From NCBI GenBank assembly GCA_021817225.1, contig JAKAVR010000010.1, forward strand, positions 1 to 44,922: a stretch of 44,922 bases of DNA, read 5' to 3'. The DNA comes from Thermoplasmata archaeon (lineage in GTDB: Archaea > Thermoplasmatota > Thermoplasmata > Sysuiplasmatales > Sysuiplasmataceae). Both the position numbers and the translations under genes were made by a program. A model generated the notes under the pieces. That model made no database searches, was not told the origin of the DNA, and worked only from the letters and a program-made list of their open reading frames with translations. Shown here piece by piece: positions 38,807 to 44,922 of this stretch; positions within the stretch are counted from its first letter, which is position 1; each line of letters starts with the position of its first letter.

Positions 38807-39973
38807 TCAGCCGGTGAGGATCTTTGCCACGGAAAGCGTCTTGAAATCGCAGTTGAATGCGCCCGAAACCATGAGCCCCACGGGCAGCCCGTCAACCTCT
38901 CCTACCGGCAGGGATATGGAGGGTGAGCCAGTGGCGTTGAAAAGCTCTGTCAGTGCAAGGAGGCTCCTGTAATCCGCTTCATGGCCCAGAACGGTTGCAA
39001 TCAGGGGAGCGGTCTGCGTCACGGTGGGGGAAAGCAGGGCGTCATAGCCCTTCATCCTCTCCTCGAAGTCTTCCCTGAGCGCCTGGAGCTCCACAAGCGC
39101 CTGGCTGTACTGCCCGTCTGTTGTTTTGCTTCCTCCCCTGAGCACAGACAGAACATCGGGGAAATATTCGCCGCTCCTTTTCTCCATCCATTTCCTGTGG
39201 AATCTCGCACCCTCGTACGAGCTGACCGTCCTCCTCAGCCCTGGCCCCTCCTTTGTAAGCAGCGGTATATCCACCGGCGAAAAGTCGAACCTGTCCTTCA
39301 TGCCCTCAACAAACTCCCTGACCCTGAGGGAGACGGCATCCGTCCCGAACATGTACAGCCCTATCTTCGGTTTCCTTTCGCTTCCGACCCACTCGACCGC
39401 GACCCTTCTGCGCCCAAGAATTGTCTCGAAAACAAGTTCGACGTCGTCTATTCTTCTTCCAAGTATTCCAACAGCGTCGAGCGTCTTGCTCAGCGGCACA
39501 ACGCCCTCATCCGGGATAATGCCAGTAGTTGGTTTGAAACCAATGACACCGCACAGCGCAGCCGGCAGTCTTACCGAACCTCCCGTATCGGTTCCAATTC
39601 CGACATCTGCCTCGCCCGAGGCAACACATGCGGCTGAACCGCCTGACGAACCGCCTGTTATATGCGCCGGATTGCGTGGATTCAGGCAGGGGCCGGCGGC
39701 CGATGAAGTTGTCGTCGCACCGATGGCGAATTCGTGCATGTTCGTCTTGCCCACAATTCGTCCACCCTCGTCAAGTATCCTGTCAACAACAAGAGCATTC
39801 TTCTTCGGTATATTGCCGCGCAGGATCCTGGATGCGGCCGTTGTAGGCAGTCCACGCACGTCCATGTTGTCCTTCACTCCGAACGTGAGAGATGAAAGCC
39901 GTCCCTTTTCCTTTCGCCTGGCATCCGCGACGGTGATGAATGCATTGTACTGGTTCTTCTGCAAGGAGACCAT
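38807..39973 (-). CDS. Amidase-signature family hydrolase
   Basis: 388 residues with a complete amidase-signature triad: Lys34 in GVKDN, Ser109 in GGSSGGSA and nucleophile Ser133 in TGGSVR. It lacks the long N-terminal helix seen in some GatA and FAAH proteins and is shorter than the usual 450-500 residues. It hydrolyses a C-N amide bond, releasing ammonia or an amine. It sits 25 bases after the cysteine hydrolase, which follows carbamate kinase on the same strand, pointing to a role in catabolism of an amide or carbamoyl compound rather than Glu-tRNA amidation. Confidence 0.87.
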   Translation of the reverse strand: MVSLQKNQYNAFITVADARRKEKGRLSSLTFGVKDNMDVRGLPTTAASRILRGNIPKKNALVVDRILDEGGRIVGKTNMHEFAIGATTTSSAAGPCLNPRNPAHITGGSSGGSAACVASGEADVGIGTDTGGSVRLPAALCGVIGFKPTTGIIPDEGVVPLSKTLDAVGILGRRIDDVELVFETILGRRRVAVEWVGSERKPKIGLYMFGTDAVSLRVREFVEGMKDRFDFSPVDIPLLTKEGPGLRRTVSSYEGARFHRKWMEKRSGEYFPDVLSVLRGGSKTTDGQYSQALVELQALREDFEERMKGYDALLSPTVTQTAPLIATVLGHEADYRSLLALTELFNATGSPSISLPVGEVDGLPVGLMVSGAFNCDFKTLSVAKILTG

Positions 39974-39998
39974 CGGTTACCGACATTGGAACTGATGA

Positions 39999-40658
39999 TT
40001 AATTCTTTGCTCCCTTCCGGGAAAGGCGTCTTCTCCTGACGACATCCCTTTTGACCGCAGCCGCAAGCGATTTTCCTCCCATGAACCTCTCAATCTTCTC
40101 AATGAATTCATCGGAGCCCAGGACTGTGAAGCCCACATTCCTGAAATCGCGCAGGTTTGCCTCCTGCACCTCCTCCGTGTTGGATGATATGCAGTCCGAG
40201 ATGAGCACCGTCCCGAAATCGTTCATATCCGAGTCATAGGCCGTTGCCCTGATGCAGTTGGGTGTCTGGGTGCCGGTGATGACAACCGTGTCAACGTCCA
40301 GCTTCCTCAAAAGAAGGTCAAGCTCCGTCCTGAAGAATGCGCTCCACTTCTTCTTCAGCACAACATAGTCACCCTTCTTCGGTTTCAGCGGGCCAAAGAA
40401 TTCTCCCGAGAGCCTGCCCCTTGAATCCAGGAGCAGCGGCCTCCCGCTATCGGACCAGTATTTCCACCTGCTGATCTCAACATCGGTGCCATCCTCCCTG
40501 TATCCCCTCGTGATGAAGAAGACGGGGACTCCCTTCCTCCTGCATGCGTCCACGACTTTTCTTATGCGCGGAACAGTCTCCCTGGCGCCTTTCACACACA
40601 GGGGAGAATCCCTGTTCACAAAAGCGTTGTTCATATCAACAACAAGCAAGCCGATCAT
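39999..40658 (-). CDS. Isochorismatase-like cysteine hydrolase
   Basis: 219 residues. Catalytic triad Asp8 (LLVVDMNNAF), Lys103 (KKKWSAFF) and Cys135 (TPNCIRATAYDS) as in nicotinamidase, N-carbamoylsarcosine and ureidoacrylate amidohydrolases. Such enzymes release ammonia (and CO2) from amides and carbamoyl amines. Its neighbours, amidase and carbamate kinase, support N-carbamoyl or amide catabolism; the exact substrate cannot be read. ATG 40658 is about 25 bases from a TATA-like box (40680-40687). The C-terminal 20 residues are highly basic (RDVVRRRRLSRK). Confidence 0.87.
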   Translation of the reverse strand: MIGLLVVDMNNAFVNRDSPLCVKGARETVPRIRKVVDACRRKGVPVFFITRGYREDGTDVEISRWKYWSDSGRPLLLDSRGRLSGEFFGPLKPKKGDYVVLKKKWSAFFRTELDLLLRKLDVDTVVITGTQTPNCIRATAYDSDMNDFGTVLISDCISSNTEEVQEANLRDFRNVGFTVLGSDEFIEKIERFMGGKSLAAAVKRDVVRRRRLSRKGAKN

Positions 40659-40679
40659 TTTGCAGCACCTTACAGATTC

Positions 40680-40687
40680 ATTTATTA
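40680..40687 (-). promoter_or_regulatory. TATA-like box for the cysteine hydrolase-amidase pair
   Basis: Minus-strand TAATAAAT, centred about 26 bases before ATG 40658, giving a leaderless transcript. Confidence 0.5.
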
Positions 40688-40699
40688 CATGTCGCTGGA

Positions 40700-41656
40700 T
40701 TAATCATTTTCGAAGATGGTTGTTCCGTCCTTCCCGTCGAGAGCGTCGAACATCTTCTCCTGTGATGTTATCACGGCGCGCTTTCCTCCCATTTGCACAA
40801 ACTTCACTGCAGCCTCGGCCTTCGGGAGCATGCTTCCCCTTCCGAACTGTCCTTCGCTTATGTGCCTCTTCATCTCATCAACCGTGGCACTCCTGAGCGG
40901 ATGCTGTTTTTCCGTCCCGAAATCAAGGAAGACGGAGTCAACATCGGTCAGTATGAACAGTTCATCCACTCCAAGGGATGTAGCAACGACCTGCGCCGCA
41001 AGATCCTTGTCTATTACCGCCTCCACTCCCCTGTAACCTTTTCCCTTCCTGATCACGGGTATGCCGCCGCCTCCCGATACAATCAGTATCTCCCTGCGGT
41101 TTTCCGAACTGTGGAAGAATGTCTTCAGCAGCTCGCCTTCCGCTATGGCCACCGGGACGGGTGAAGGCACTACTCTCCTGTAGCCGCCCCTCGCGGAGTC
41201 TTGAACCATCTTCCATTTCTTTTCCTTCTTCAGCTTCCTGCTCTCCTCACCGCTGTAATATCCGCCGACAGGCTTTGAAGGGTTTTCGAATGCTGGATCA
41301 TCTGCGCTTACAATCGTCCTCGTGAGAACACATAATGCCTGCATGCCTATGTTCCTCTTCCTGAATTCGTTGTCCATGCTCTGTATCAGCATGTATCCTA
41401 TGAGACCCTGCGATTCTGCAACGCAGGCGTCAAGCGGGGAAGGAGGTACGGCTTTCACTGCTGTTTCATTCTGAAGGAGGATGTCTCCCACCTGCGGTCC
41501 GTTGCCGTGCGTCACAACGAGATGATATCCCTTTTCGACCAAATTCGCAATAATCTTCGCTGCCTCGCGCGTATTCTCAATCTGCAGTTCGAACTCGCCC
41601 CTCTGTCCTGCCTTGAGAATCGCATTTCCCCCGAGTGCAACCAATGCTGTTTTCAA
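40700..41656 (-). CDS. arcC: Carbamate kinase
   Basis: 318 residues of the carbamate kinase family: VALGGNAIL, VTHGNGPQVGDILLQNE, the lid region ending in VVPSPVPVAI, SGGGGIPVI and a C-terminal GSMLPKAEAAVKF with GKDGTTI. It transfers phosphate from carbamoyl phosphate to ADP, making ATP plus carbamate that decays to NH3 and CO2. With FdrA encoded on the other side of the locus it fits energy-yielding breakdown of a carbamoyl compound. Start is TTG at 41656; no ATG or GTG is available near the conserved N-terminus. It also could supply carbamoyl phosphate for HypF when run in reverse. Confidence 0.95.
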   Translation of the reverse strand: MKTALVALGGNAILKAGQRGEFELQIENTREAAKIIANLVEKGYHLVVTHGNGPQVGDILLQNETAVKAVPPSPLDACVAESQGLIGYMLIQSMDNEFRKRNIGMQALCVLTRTIVSADDPAFENPSKPVGGYYSGEESRKLKKEKKWKMVQDSARGGYRRVVPSPVPVAIAEGELLKTFFHSSENRREILIVSGGGGIPVIRKGKGYRGVEAVIDKDLAAQVVATSLGVDELFILTDVDSVFLDFGTEKQHPLRSATVDEMKRHISEGQFGRGSMLPKAEAAVKFVQMGGKRAVITSQEKMFDALDGKDGTTIFEND

Positions 41657-41780
41657 AATAACACCAGAATTTTGCTTGTTTCCTTCTCAGGGCGGTACGC
41701 ACAGAGAATCCCTGCGTGCGGCAGTCGCTCTGAATTTCCCGATGTCCGTATTTTTGTCAATTATTTCACTAATGTAGCCC

Positions 41781-41796
41781 ATAACGGCACCGTTAT
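41781..41796. promoter_or_regulatory. 16-base palindrome between arcC and the amidohydrolase
   Basis: ATAACGG-CA-CCGTTAT, perfect 7-base arms with a 2-base centre, in the 231-base divergent region. Position suits an operator for either or both genes. Confidence 0.4.
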
Positions 41797-41834
41797 CGTG
41801 TCAGGAAAGCAAACGCAGGTTTTGTTAGAAGAAA

Positions 41835-41848
41835 ATGTATATATTAAT
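41835..41848 (+). promoter_or_regulatory. TATA-like box for the amidohydrolase
   Basis: ATGTATATATTAAT; initiation about 26 bases later would leave a leader of about 20 bases containing GGGGGT ahead of ATG 41888. Confidence 0.5.
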
Positions 41849-41887
41849 CTTTTTCATTTTAGATCCTTTTCCTCTGGGGGTACAAGA

Positions 41888-43135
41888 ATGGCTGAAATGG
41901 AACTCGTAATTAAAAACGCAAGGATTGAGGATGAGAAACCGTTGGTTGATATCGGTGTCTCCGAGGGCAAGATCGCAGAGATAGGCAGCGGTCTGAAGGG
42001 CAAGAACACAATTGACGTGAAAGGCGATGTCGTGGTTCCAACTTTCATTGAGAGCCACATACACCTTGACAAGGCGCTGCTCGAAAGGGTAAGGCCAAAC
42101 GTCGAGGGGACGCTCGCCGGCGCCATAAAGATCACCGGTGAACTCAAGAAGGGCTTTCAGTACGATGAGGTCCTGAAGCGATCCATGCAGGTCATGGACA
42201 TGCTTGTTTCTCACGGCACGACGATTGTCAGGGCGCACCCGGACACGGACCCTCTCGGCGGCCTTACAGGGTTCAAGGTGATGCTGGAGCTCAAGAAGAG
42301 GTACAAGGGCGTAGTGGACCTGCAGGTTGTCGCCTTCCCGCAGGAGGGCATAATCAAGCTGCCGGGCGCATTCGAGATAATCGAGGAGGCAATGAAGCTC
42401 GGCGCCGATGTCGTCGGCGGCTGTCCCTACAATGAAAACAACTACGAGGACACAAAGAAGCATGTTGACAAGATGTTCGACCTCGCAAAGAAATACAACA
42501 AGGACCTCGACTTCCATGCAGACTTCGGCGACAATCCTGACGACCTCAGGTACAGGTCAATTGACTACATCATAGAGAAGACAGAACGCGAAAGCTTCCA
42601 GGGGAGGGTTACGGTCGGCCACATGACATCCCTTTCCAGCATAGAGCCAGAGCTGCTCGCAGACACAATCAAGCGCATGGCTCACGCACGCATCAACATA
42701 GTGCCTCTTCCTGCGACCGACATGTATCTGAGCGGAAGGGGGGACAAGAACAGGGTGAGAAGGGGAGTGATTAATCCGAAGCCCTTCATTGCGGGCGGAG
42801 TCAACGTCGTCTTCTCTTCCAACAACATAAGGAATGCATTCACACCATTCGGACGCGGCGATCTGCTTATGATAGGCTCCCTGTTCGAACATGCCGCGCA
42901 GCTTGGCTCGATAAGCGACCAGAAGCTGCTGCTCGATATGATAACAAACAACGCCGCGAAACTGCAGCATTTGGAGAAGACATACGGGCTGCAGAAGGGG
43001 AAGAACGCCGACTTCAACGTCCTTGGCACGAAACTCCTGTCAGATGTCTTCCTGGACGTCCCCGTAAGGAAGTATGTTGTCAAGAGGGGAAAAATAGTTT
43101 ACAAGAGCGAACTGGTTGAAACAAGGAACTGGTAA
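41888..43135 (+). CDS. Cytosine deaminase-like amidohydrolase with altered active site
   Basis: 415 residues of the CodA/AtzC branch of the amidohydrolase superfamily: metal HxH in ESHIHLDKALL (His57, His59), His210 in FHADF, His245 in VGHMTS, and DLQVVAFPQEG with the conserved Gln. Compared with E. coli CodA, as recalled, the positions of Glu217, Asp313 and Asp314 are Phe213, Asn312 and Asn313 here, so ordinary cytosine deamination is unlikely. Context suggests a ring-opening or N-carbamoyl hydrolysis step upstream of FdrA/carbamate kinase. GGGGGT precedes ATG 41888; the in-frame extension to 41507 overlaps arcC and is rejected. Confidence 0.88.
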   Translation: MAEMELVIKNARIEDEKPLVDIGVSEGKIAEIGSGLKGKNTIDVKGDVVVPTFIESHIHLDKALLERVRPNVEGTLAGAIKITGELKKGFQYDEVLKRSMQVMDMLVSHGTTIVRAHPDTDPLGGLTGFKVMLELKKRYKGVVDLQVVAFPQEGIIKLPGAFEIIEEAMKLGADVVGGCPYNENNYEDTKKHVDKMFDLAKKYNKDLDFHADFGDNPDDLRYRSIDYIIEKTERESFQGRVTVGHMTSLSSIEPELLADTIKRMAHARINIVPLPATDMYLSGRGDKNRVRRGVINPKPFIAGGVNVVFSSNNIRNAFTPFGRGDLLMIGSLFEHAAQLGSISDQKLLLDMITNNAAKLQHLEKTYGLQKGKNADFNVLGTKLLSDVFLDVPVRKYVVKRGKIVYKSELVETRNW

Positions 43136-43147
43136 AAGAAAAGGTGG

Positions 43148-43155
43148 TTTAAATA
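43148..43155 (+). promoter_or_regulatory. TATA-like box upstream of the DUF1097-like gene
   Basis: TTTAAATA is centred about 26 bases before an in-frame ATA at 43177, the position expected for a leaderless start. Confidence 0.5.
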
Positions 43156-43212
43156 GCAACGAGAACGAAAGAAACAATACCGACTGCATTTACGGGTGCC
43201 TTCATAGCCGGA

Positions 43213-43749
43213 TTGACTGTACTGATGACAGCGTCTGTCGTGCTGCCAAAACCATGGGCAATACTGTTTCCCCCATGGGCTGTCTTCATCACATGGGCAG
43301 GTTACTTCGCTGCAGGCGGAGGCGGCAAGGGACAGGCGCTGCCAACATTCAAGAAGATGTACATCGCAGTCCTGTGGGGCGACATCTGGGGTCTAGCCGG
43401 AGGCCTGGGGCTTGTATTCGTTGTGGGCAAGATGGGCCTGTCACTCCCGCTTTCGCTCCTGCTTGACGGGATAGTGATATTCCTTGTTAACCAGCCAATA
43501 CTCTGGGGAACAAGGTGGTGGGGGCCGATAAAATACACTCCCGCCATCTTCTACGGCTTCGCCACCTTCTTCAGCACATACTTCAGCGGTTTCGGCTTCT
43601 ATCCCGGTCCGCTTGACCAGTACACGACTATTTTCTCCGCCTTCATAACAGCATACATAGCAAACGCACTCGGCCCGATTGCGGCGTACCTGCAGGTCAG
43701 ATTAGCAATGATAAAAGAGGTGCCTGTGGAAGGCAGTGCAAAGAACTGA
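43213..43749 (+). CDS. DUF1097-like membrane protein (transporter/permease candidate)
   Basis: 178 residues from TTG 43213, with about five helices. FPPWAVFITWAGYFAAGGGGKG is the DUF1097 pattern (hydrophobic helix then WASYFA.GG). The TTG start would cut helix 1: the open frame continues upstream to a stop at 43150, encoding PTAFTGAFIAG without any ATG, GTG or TTG, and an ATA at 43177 lies at the leaderless distance from a TATA-like box. The true protein may therefore be 190 residues. DUF1097 function is unestablished; its place between amidohydrolase and FdrA suggests substrate uptake. A G+C-rich hairpin follows. Confidence 0.7.
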   Translation: MTVLMTASVVLPKPWAILFPPWAVFITWAGYFAAGGGGKGQALPTFKKMYIAVLWGDIWGLAGGLGLVFVVGKMGLSLPLSLLLDGIVIFLVNQPILWGTRWWGPIKYTPAIFYGFATFFSTYFSGFGFYPGPLDQYTTIFSAFITAYIANALGPIAAYLQVRLAMIKEVPVEGSAKN

Positions 43750-43760
43750 ACGCATTCAGT

Positions 43761-43781
43761 CCCCGGCCGTTCCGGCCGGGG
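43761..43781 (+). terminator. GC-rich stem-loop after the DUF1097-like gene
   Basis: CCCCGGCCG (43761-43769) pairs with CGGCCGGGG (43773-43781) around a 3-base loop, followed by AAACATTTT. Twelve bases after the stop codon; it may end or attenuate the transcript before fdrA, which has its own promoter. Confidence 0.5.
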
Positions 43782-43810
43782 AAACATTTTACAGTTACAG
43801 GTGGACATCA

Positions 43811-43819
43811 GTTTAAATT
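43811..43819 (+). promoter_or_regulatory. TATA-like box for fdrA
   Basis: GTTTAAATT, with predicted initiation near 43841, about 11 bases before the GTG start at 43852. Confidence 0.5.
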
Positions 43820-43825
43820 GGCGCT

Positions 43826-43839
43826 TGTGATAGATCACA
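43826..43839. promoter_or_regulatory. Palindrome between fdrA TATA box and start, candidate operator
   Basis: TGTGAT-AG-ATCACA, perfect 6-base arms, occupying roughly -15 to -2 of the predicted initiation site, where a bound repressor would block initiation. Confidence 0.45.
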
Positions 43840-43851
43840 TCACATCGGCCG

Positions 43852-44922
43852 GTGATTGTTCTGAGTGAGGTTTATCGCACTGTCGAGGGCAGGTATGTGG
43901 ATTCCGTCCTGCTGATGCAGATCAGCAGGGAAGTGGAGAAGATGGATGGAGTGCAAAAGGCGGGAGCCATGGTTGCAACTCCCGAGAACATCTCATTTTT
44001 CAGGATTGCAGGCTTCAACCCTCCTCCGGGCGCTGGTGCAAACAGCATACTTCTGGCAGTGGACGCCGTGACCGAGCCGGCCGCTGATGCGGCAATAAGC
44101 AAAATGCTCGGCATGATAGAAAGCGGAACTTCGGGAGCGGGCCGCAGATACAGGCTGGATGAACTGTCTTCGCTGATGTCAGATGAAGATTATCCAGTGA
44201 TGCTCATATCGACCCCCGGACAGTATGTCAGGGAGATTGCACTCGGTGCCCTTGATATTAGTGCAAACCTGCACATTTTCAGCAGCAACGTGCCGCTTGA
44301 GCAGGAACTTGAAATCAAGAGAAAGGGAAGGGACAGGGGGCTGCTTGTGATGGGACCGGACTGCGGCACATCCATCATCGACGGGCACGGTATCGGCTTT
44401 GCCAACAAGCTCAGCCCGGGAAATGATGTTGGCGTCATCGGCTCGTCCGGGACGGGCATACAGGAACTCACCGTGCAGCTTGACGCAGCCGGTCTGGGCG
44501 TTTCATACGCAATAGGCACGGGCAGCAATGATCTCACACCTGAAGTGGGCGGGATTACAACAGAGCAGGCAATAGCTATGCTTCGCGGCAAGTGCTCATC
44601 CATAGCCATTGTATGCAAGAAGCCGGACCCTGCGCTGCAGAAGAGGATAGTTGCCGAGATTCAGGATTTGCCCTCCGCCTTCATCTCACTCGGCAGCAGC
44701 GAGTCTGGCGTTTATGGGAATACAGGTGTCGGCGGCATAATAGACGAAGCGGTGGCCCACATTGCCAGGAAGCTCGGAAGGGGGCACCCTCTTGATGAAA
44801 AGGCGGTTGAGGCTGCAAGTCCGGGGCAAAGCAGAAGACTCCTGAAGGGTTACTTCGTGGGCGGAAGCCTCTGCTATCAGGCCCAGGCAATTCTGCACCG
44901 TGAAGGAATAAAGGTGTACTCC
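43852..44922 (+). CDS. fdrA: FdrA family protein, cut by window edge
   Basis: 357 residues to the window end, open and lacking a stop. Matches FdrA: YVDSVLLMQISREV at the N-terminus, KGRDRGLLVMGPDCGTSIIDG, GVIGSSGTGIQELT (CoA-ligase-like nucleotide loop) and EVGGITTEQAIAML. E. coli FdrA belongs to the fdrA-ylbE-ylbF-carbamate kinase cluster, assigned to a transcarbamylase that phosphorolyses oxamate-type carbamoyl products of allantoin. Here carbamate kinase is 2 kb upstream on the other strand. GTG 43852 is used; no ribosome site, with a leader of about 11 bases. DUF1116 and DUF2877 genes are expected beyond the window. Confidence 0.9.
   Translation, partial: MIVLSEVYRTVEGRYVDSVLLMQISREVEKMDGVQKAGAMVATPENISFFRIAGFNPPPGAGANSILLAVDAVTEPAADAAISKMLGMIESGTSGAGRRYRLDELSSLMSDEDYPVMLISTPGQYVREIALGALDISANLHIFSSNVPLEQELEIKRKGRDRGLLVMGPDCGTSIIDGHGIGFANKLSPGNDVGVIGSSGTGIQELTVQLDAAGLGVSYAIGTGSNDLTPEVGGITTEQAIAMLRGKCSSIAIVCKKPDPALQKRIVAEIQDLPSAFISLGSSESGVYGNTGVGGIIDEAVAHIARKLGRGHPLDEKAVEAASPGQSRRLLKGYFVGGSLCYQAQAILHREGIKVYS

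Follow-up and report, generated by a model that had tools for sequence, protein, structure and literature searches.

In E. coli, the carbamoyl group is stripped off and ATP is made at the end of allantoin breakdown; the activity of AllFGH was assigned as late as 2024. The question raised by the present archaeal locus is whether it encodes a complete set of such enzymes and, if so, which compound might feed them. A sequence-only reading had grouped an amidase, a cysteine hydrolase, a carbamate kinase, a cytosine-deaminase-like hydrolase, a DUF1097 membrane protein and FdrA into an archaeal locus for the energy-yielding breakdown of a carbamoyl compound. The window, that is, the whole stretch of 44,922 nucleotides that was analyzed, is an entire MAG contig.

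Gene content and conservation of the locus

Profile searches gave matches far beyond chance for all six genes, which stand together as that reading had placed them. On the minus strand lie a GatA-like amidase of 388 aa (38807..39973; PF01425, 276 bits, E 6e-82), an isochorismatase-family cysteine hydrolase of 219 aa, CysH (39999..40658; PF00857, 125 bits, E 3e-36), and a catabolic carbamate kinase of the ArcC/AllK type of 318 aa (40700..41656), which passes the curated family cut-off (TIGR00746, 370.2 bits against 358.25). An intergenic region of 231 bases (41657..41887), read directly from the sequence, separates these from a divergent set and, judging only from this orientation, likely holds both promoters. 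The plus-strand set consists of a CodA-like amidohydrolase of 415 aa, AmHyd (41888..43135; best match NCBIfam PRK07572, 278 bits, cut-off 438), a DUF1097 membrane protein of 178 aa (43213..43749; PF06496, 47 bits, cut-off 24.6), and the first 357 of the 488 aa of AllF/FdrA (43852..44922; PRK06091, E 6e-66). An AmHyd start at 41507, where the open reading frame begins, was rejected in favor of one near 41888.

FdrA is truncated because the contig stops at 44922, within the fdrA/allF gene. Contig C74 of the same genome shares an exact 46-base end overlap with the window, and joining the two gave an AllF open reading frame of 488 aa that matched the E. coli FdrA structure 3dmy (E 4.5e-59). Outside the window, C74 carries the remainder of AllF (L006:56-451), AllG (DUF1116; L006:614-1852; PF06545, 279 bits) and AllH (DUF2877; L006:1849-2661; PF11392, 76 bits), followed by Liv-type ABC transporter genes. 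The DUF1116 and DUF2877 genes that had been anticipated downstream are thus present, and this acid-mine archaeon encodes the complete AllFGH trio together with a carbamate kinase, with CysH and the kinase divergent from AmHyd-DUF1097-AllF-AllG-AllH.

The entire locus was also found in the same order on a single contig of a sister species MAG, YF1.bin95 (Thermoplasmata), at 91–93% DNA identity and with AllF, AllG and AllH consecutive. In a third species (74% DNA identity), AmHyd-DUF1097-AllF was present, while HypD, the amidase and CysH lay on another contig in the order of the window. A mis-join or contamination was rejected on account of the contiguity in the sister MAG and the HypD-amidase-CysH order kept in the third species, and recent foreign DNA was rejected on composition, the GC content (0.51–0.58) being like that of the remainder of the contigs. 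All reading frames were open in both the genome of the window (G000) and YF1.bin95, and the identities of AmHyd (97%), AllG (97%) and CysH (98%) between the two exceeded that of the DNA, suggesting purifying selection. The cassette was missing from G332, a congener, as well as from the other 389 genomes of the phylum sampled, a rarity figure that holds for this draw from a larger group, and the sister MAG was the sole match in an AllG search of the genome contigs. Wider named relatives came from a plasmid collection, with bacterial chromosomes represented by E. coli K-12. In the literature searched, AllFGH in archaea was reported only for Nitrososphaerales, mostly ammonia oxidizers; a complete AllFGH, apparently under selection, is now placed in a second archaeal phylum, Thermoplasmatota.

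Comparison with known AllFGH systems

In E. coli, AllFGH has been purified as an oxamic transcarbamylase (PMC11326118), and AllK serves as a catabolic carbamate kinase (PMC9843812). The archaeal locus resembles this allFGHK system in combining three transcarbamylase subunits with a carbamate kinase, and homology with the enzymes of E. coli would give it the proposed role in making ATP from carbamoyl phosphate. AllF and AllG were 34.5% and 45% identical to their E. coli counterparts, the carbamate kinase was 37–45% identical to those encoded in bacterial AllFGH loci, E. coli allFGHK and yah among them, and AllH was weakly similar to other members (35% over 116 aa against E. coli AllH). In the AllG tree, the E. 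coli, E. faecalis and E. gilvus proteins formed a group with 100/99 support, outside of which the archaeal AllG branched without firm placement. This position outside the characterized OXTCase clade, together with the weak similarity of AllH, suggests that the acceptor may not be oxamate.

Unlike E. coli allFGHK, the archaeal locus has no allantoin genes, and AmHyd, CysH and DUF1097 are added. No Ldh_2 (PF02615) match, as sought for an AllD-type ureidoglycolate dehydrogenase, which in E. coli provides the oxalurate, was found in the genome (95% complete), and no allantoinase or hydantoinase was called among its Amidohydro_1 (PF01979) proteins, the closest of which was best called a dihydroorotase (258 with the allantoinase model, cut-off 358). 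These data fit a substrate other than allantoin.

This much of the archaeal interpretation stands, whereas the idea that the extra hydrolases are peculiar to archaea is not supported, as cysteine hydrolases, ring-opening amidohydrolases or proteins resembling CodA are also encoded in bacterial loci with AllFGH and carbamate kinase. The E. faecalis IDRL-9065 locus (NZ_CP143580.1 302129-313349, L014) shares the AmHyd residue type, the carbamate kinase, AllH and, as a fusion, AllF and AllG, but it has an AllD-like dehydrogenase and secondary transporters, and no CysH, amidase or DUF1097 is annotated there. E. coli yahDEFGHIJ likewise joins AllFGH and carbamate kinase paralogues to a CodA-related amidohydrolase, YahJ, which, unlike AmHyd, falls in another clade (25% identity) and has Glu217 and Asp313 intact. 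In the AllHFG-arcC loci of Peptoclostridium and an E. coli plasmid, a cysteine hydrolase stands beside AllH, AllF, AllG and carbamate kinase. These two hydrolases share 59% identity with one another but only 25% with CysH, suggesting that they are probably not its orthologues, and such orthology was rejected.

A 2025 report (PMC12625717), in the part of its text drawn on here, describes loci of ammonia-oxidizing archaea (AOA) in which allFGHK adjoins genes for BiuH and a GatA-like amidase. Those contigs are alike in that archaeal AllFGH and carbamate kinase adjoin an isochorismatase-type hydrolase and a GatA-like amidase. They differ in belonging to another archaeal phylum, in that the CysH of the window is not BiuH by model score, and in that neither AmHyd nor DUF1097 is listed for them in that part of the report.

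The altered active site of AmHyd

AmHyd had been described as cytosine-deaminase-like, which holds for its overall sequence, closest to cytosine deaminase models and structures, but not for its catalytic residues. The metal histidines H61, H63 and H214, the glutamine Q156 and also H246 are all kept, while the Asp-His-Glu set of cytosine deaminase (E217, H246, D313) is incomplete. In a residue table and a tree, both covering 23 sequences, the catalytic Glu217 was replaced by Phe and Asp313 by Asn in 11 of the 11 clade members. All 11 also showed the reciprocal exchange on strand 7, from Asn to Asp, and the Asn/Asp swap occurred in none of the 12 other sequences. By alignment, the E217F/N279D/D313N residues of this subfamily correspond to F213, D278 and N312 in the window. 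Deaminases use the missing Glu to protonate the ring nitrogen (PMC12828455), and a canonical deaminase was rejected; lacking both catalytic acids, AmHyd might be inactive or catalyze something else. An AlphaFold2 model of AmHyd from two sequences had a mean pLDDT of 44, and D278 is placed in the active site from the alignment only.

The closest bacterial relative found was a protein 45.7% identical to AmHyd in an E. faecalis AllFGH locus, whose AllG groups with that of E. coli (100/99 support). Of the nine bacterial loci examined for the AmHyd clade, one had AllFGH next to the AmHyd relative, two had 8-oxoguanine deaminase genes, and five contained a gene of the gamma-glutamyltransferase family (oxamate-hydrolase-like), these last neighbors being alphaproteobacterial plasmid genes, not archaeal ones. 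For the three such loci that were compared with structures (L018, L061 and L063), the best match was to the two chains of structure 5HFT taken together, which we take to be the Klebsiella oxamate amidohydrolase HpxW. The subfamily thus spans archaea, enterococci and alphaproteobacteria, lacks the deaminase machinery although automatic annotation calls it cytosine deaminase or amidohydrolase, and tends to occur alongside enzymes that make or cleave oxamate; its neighbors and residues give a short substrate list.

Predicted pathway and alternative explanations

The genes, their order, their conservation and the altered AmHyd residues were read from sequence, and the enzyme roles that follow are predicted. 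We lean toward a cassette in which an AllFGH-type transcarbamylase and carbamate kinase would turn an imported cyclic or N-carbamoyl nitrogen compound into ammonia and ATP. In the favored scheme, uptake might tentatively be assigned to the DUF1097 protein or the Liv-type transporter. AmHyd, judging from its neighbors and catalytic residues, would open a cyclic ureide, the most likely product being oxalurate or a closely analogous N-carbamoyl acid. AllFGH, if it acts like its purified E. coli homologue, would move the carbamoyl group to phosphate, yielding carbamoyl phosphate together with oxamate or another amide, and carbamate kinase, placed in its family by score, would presumably run in the direction of ATP, CO2 and ammonia. 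As a guess, CysH may hydrolyze the left-over amide or another intermediate.

Read by eye, the CysH sequence has the Asp, Lys and Cys that a catalytic triad would require, and its closest solved chain was 3hu5, named only "isochorismatase family protein"; 3hb7 and proteins related to N-carbamoylsarcosine amidase came next. It scored below the cut-offs for BiuH (50.6 against 370 bits) and RutB, the ureidoacrylate amidohydrolase (61.4 against 378 bits), and a copy 85% identical to it stands alone, without the cassette, in G392, which also has an amidase relative (48%). The amidase was below the curated cut-offs for AtzF (179 against 511 bits), AtzE (195 against 426) and GatA (247 against 481). 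Its position in the locus is confirmed, but the congener G332 keeps it beside an FMN reductase without the cassette, so that it is probably a flanking gene and not an obligate member. The DUF1097 protein, a candidate uptake protein, had no matches in the plasmid collection and occupies an equivalent place, with 98% conservation in YF1.bin95 and 77% in G390.

These scores bear on a biuret- or triuret-type pathway, like that proposed for AOA, in which a biuret-like substrate would fall to CysH and allophanate to the amidase, with AllFGH and carbamate kinase working on a separate carbamoyl compound. Although the three gene kinds that adjoin one another here are also combined on the AOA contigs (PMC12625717), we consider this unlikely, given the shortfall of both hydrolases from the BiuH and allophanate hydrolase (AtzF) cut-offs, their occurrence elsewhere without the cassette, and an AmHyd relative not being among the genes described for the AOA loci in the part of that report drawn on here. 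A pyrimidine route, with AmHyd deaminating cytosine or another pyrimidine and the other enzymes degrading a ring-opened pyrimidine ureide, would accord with the overall resemblance of AmHyd to cytosine deaminases and with the cytosine or xanthine permeases in E. coli plasmid and clostridial AllFGH loci. It appears very doubtful, as archaeal CodA-like relatives in pyrimidine operons retain Glu217 and Asp313, both replaced throughout the AmHyd clade, and PreA or dihydropyrimidinase genes were not found in the stretches around the locus.

The direction of the reactions could also be reversed, with carbamate kinase making carbamoyl phosphate and AllFGH carbamoylating an acceptor for biosynthesis or nitrogen storage. 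For the E. coli enzyme, kinetic constants were indeed given with carbamoyl phosphate and oxamate, the carbamoylating direction (PMC11326118), but the association with hydrolases and the purine-degradation gene and transporter neighbors in bacteria point to catabolism, making this highly improbable. That the cassette is a patchily inherited relic, out of use, agrees with its rarity in the phylum; the open frames and the apparent purifying selection make us regard this, too, as very unlikely.

Within the favored scheme of ring opening to oxalurate or an analogue, a more specific proposal is that proteins of the E217F/N279D/D313N subfamily represent a new catalytic type of the amidohydrolase superfamily, in which strand 7 instead of strand 8 supplies the acid and which opens the ring of parabanate or a related oxidized purine to oxalurate. 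We regard this as improbable. If true, archaea of acid mines would live partly on oxidized purines, each molecule yielding ammonia and one ATP by way of AllFGH and carbamate kinase. The reported stability of parabanic acid below pH 5 (PMC5703782) and its reported formation from urate by the Fenton reaction (PMC12152903) would suit an acidic, iron-rich habitat. At neutral pH, however, its ring also opens by itself, so that an enzyme would be less needed.

The locus across the contig break and its extent

All six genes of the sequence-only reading (amidase, cysteine hydrolase CysH, carbamate kinase, the CodA-like amidohydrolase AmHyd, DUF1097 protein and FdrA, here AllF) were found at their positions, with family matches far beyond chance. 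The window comprises all 44,922 bases of a MAG contig, C3, and the fdrA gene is interrupted by its end. The DUF1116 (PF06545, AllG) and DUF2877 (PF11392, AllH) genes that the same reading expected beyond this end were indeed present, each as one copy in the genome (95% completeness, 1.6% contamination) and both on a second contig, C74. Bases 1–9 of C74 are TTCCGATCT (L006:1–9), which resembles the terminal part of an Illumina adapter; immediately after them, C74 repeats the last 46 bases of the window exactly. The break probably stems from a read end that had not been trimmed. Joining the two contigs gave an open AllF frame of 488 codons, followed by AllG and AllH. The join is supported beyond the 46-base overlap, because the sister species YF1.bin95 carries amidase-CysH-carbamate kinase and AmHyd-DUF1097-AllF-AllG-AllH, with the subsequent genes, on a single contig (JAKAPY010000004.1), at a DNA identity of 91–93% to the window region. 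The protein identities between the two species (AmHyd 97%, CysH 98%, and AllG 97%) exceed the DNA identity, suggesting, at the level of sequence, that the cassette genes are under selection.

Two parts of the region recur in the window's order in G390 (69% complete), a third species of this genus: AmHyd-DUF1097-AllF on one contig and HypA-HypD-amidase-CysH on a separate one, both at about 70% DNA identity. In a congener (G332, 95% complete), FMN reductase, ETF, phosphoribosyltransferase, and LivK-type genes begin about 370 bases after the amidase; no cassette gene lies between the amidase and the FMN reductase, and no AllG was found anywhere in that genome. The amidase and what follows AllH are thus found where the cassette is missing, so that the cassette proper is limited to CysH, carbamate kinase, AmHyd, DUF1097, AllF, AllG, and AllH. 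A lone CysH, 85% identical, occurs in another genus of the family (L044:5518–6270), next to a CBS-domain amino-acid permease, an Lrp-type regulator, and a class III aminotransferase. Among 390 genomes sampled from the phylum, AllG was found only in that of the window, and within the order in two of eight. A recent foreign origin of the cassette was considered and rejected, as base composition does not single it out. Downstream lies a Liv-type ABC transporter (L006:6471–11220) with a binding protein, two permeases, and two ATPases.

Active site and neighbors of AmHyd

By overall sequence, AmHyd is cytosine-deaminase-like, and a 23-sequence alignment (E. coli CodA numbering) showed that the metal histidines, Q156, and H246 are retained, while E217 is replaced by Phe, N279 by Asp, and D313 by Asn. 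All three substitutions occur in every one of the 11 members of a clade (support 91/95) comprising the proteins of the window, G390, E. faecalis, and eight alphaproteobacterial plasmids. Among the 12 sequences outside it, N279D and D313N are both absent, and E217F occurs once, in an Arthrobacter protein. In guanine- and cytosine-deaminase clusters, Asp and Glu belong to the highly conserved machinery, with Glu protonating the ring nitrogen (PMC12828455). Since these residues are replaced, AmHyd is, judged by its sequence, unlikely to be an ordinary deaminase; hydrolysis of an amide or imide, which would not need such a Glu, is a fair guess. Residues 217 and 313 are intact in archaeal relatives encoded in reductive pyrimidine operons. 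Two such Thermoplasmata operons (L049 and L050) encode a PreA-type dihydropyrimidine dehydrogenase, a dihydropyrimidinase (both above the cut-off in L050), a nitrilase-family N-carbamoyl amidase, an NCS1 permease, and a CodA-like protein whose catalytic residues are preserved; together they apparently form a reductive pyrimidine degradation pathway in archaea.

The E. faecalis AmHyd locus contains carbamate kinase, AllH, an AllD-like dehydrogenase, and AllF and AllG fused in one reading frame (L014:14339–17350). Five of the eight alphaproteobacterial loci contain a gamma-glutamyltransferase-family gene, and two of the nine bacterial loci an 8-oxoguanine deaminase gene. In all three gamma-glutamyltransferase-family genes tested, the summed scores of the two chains of 5HFT, which we take to be HpxW, the oxamate amidohydrolase of Klebsiella, exceeded that of every other structure (Pleomorphomonas, 297+263 bits vs. 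244; Azospirillum, 181+161 vs. 195; Rhizobium ACO-34A, 160+173 vs. 201). The Pleomorphomonas gene is annotated as ywrD. According to a review (PMC5270733), oxamate is split by HpxW into oxalate and ammonium, and HpxW and YwrD closely resemble each other. Because AllFGH, HpxW-like, and 8-oxoguanine deaminase genes adjoin it, the AmHyd subfamily is associated with enzymes making or using oxamate and with purine genes, an association across nine loci rather than proof. On the plasmid of Rhizobium sp. ACO-34A (L061:178–6233), an isochorismatase, an allophanate hydrolase, a YahJ-type amidohydrolase, the HpxW-like gene, and an E217F/N279D/D313N amidohydrolase stand in one row, a bacterial set closely resembling the archaeal one.

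Proposed pathway and known AllFGH loci

Purified AllF-AllG-AllH of E. coli is an oxamic transcarbamylase that interconverts oxalurate plus phosphate and oxamate plus carbamoyl phosphate (PMC11326118), and AllK is the catabolic carbamate kinase (PMC9843812). Archaeal AllF matches 3dmy, the structure of E. coli FdrA (E 4.5e-59), and archaeal AllG is 45% identical to E. coli AllG. In the AllG tree, E. coli, E. faecalis, and E. gilvus form one clade (100/99), with the archaeal AllG branching outside at a weakly supported position. The archaeal AllFGH likely yields carbamoyl phosphate from some N-carbamoyl compound, for which oxalurate is only plausible. In the pathway we propose, AmHyd would open the ring of a cyclic ureide to oxalurate or an analogue, AllFGH would move the carbamoyl group of this product onto phosphate, and carbamate kinase would then generate ATP together with CO2 and ammonia; the left-over amide may be hydrolyzed by CysH. 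One concrete candidate for the cyclic ureide, though of low probability, is parabanate, a product of the Fenton reaction with urate (PMC12152903). Parabanate opens to oxalurate; it persists below pH 5, whereas at neutral pH the ring opens without an enzyme (PMC5703782), and this spontaneous opening speaks against the need for one. We infer acid-mine water as the host habitat from the name of the sister isolate, YF1, which looks like the code of a mine site in China.

Bacterial AllFGH/carbamate kinase loci are modular, in that partner genes vary from locus to locus: allantoin genes in E. gilvus, a ring-opening amidohydrolase in Aeromonas and Aminobacter, a cysteine hydrolase in Peptoclostridium and on an E. 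coli plasmid, and YahJ in the E. coli yah locus. The window locus resembles one reported in 2025 from ammonia-oxidizing archaea (PMC12625717), where allFGHK is accompanied by biuH and a GatA-like amidase, but it comes from another archaeal phylum and, compared with the portion of that report available to us, features a non-BiuH cysteine hydrolase, DUF1097, and an altered amidohydrolase. Plasmids of Aminobacter and Klebsiella share a near-identical locus (L024:6268–12642 and L016:7268–14954) with AllF and AllG, no annotated AllH, and an adjoining ring-opening amidohydrolase, carbamate kinase, CodA-like protein, and nucleoside-type ABC transporter, suggesting that AllFG is employed there in cyanurate- or barbiturate-type ring breakdown.
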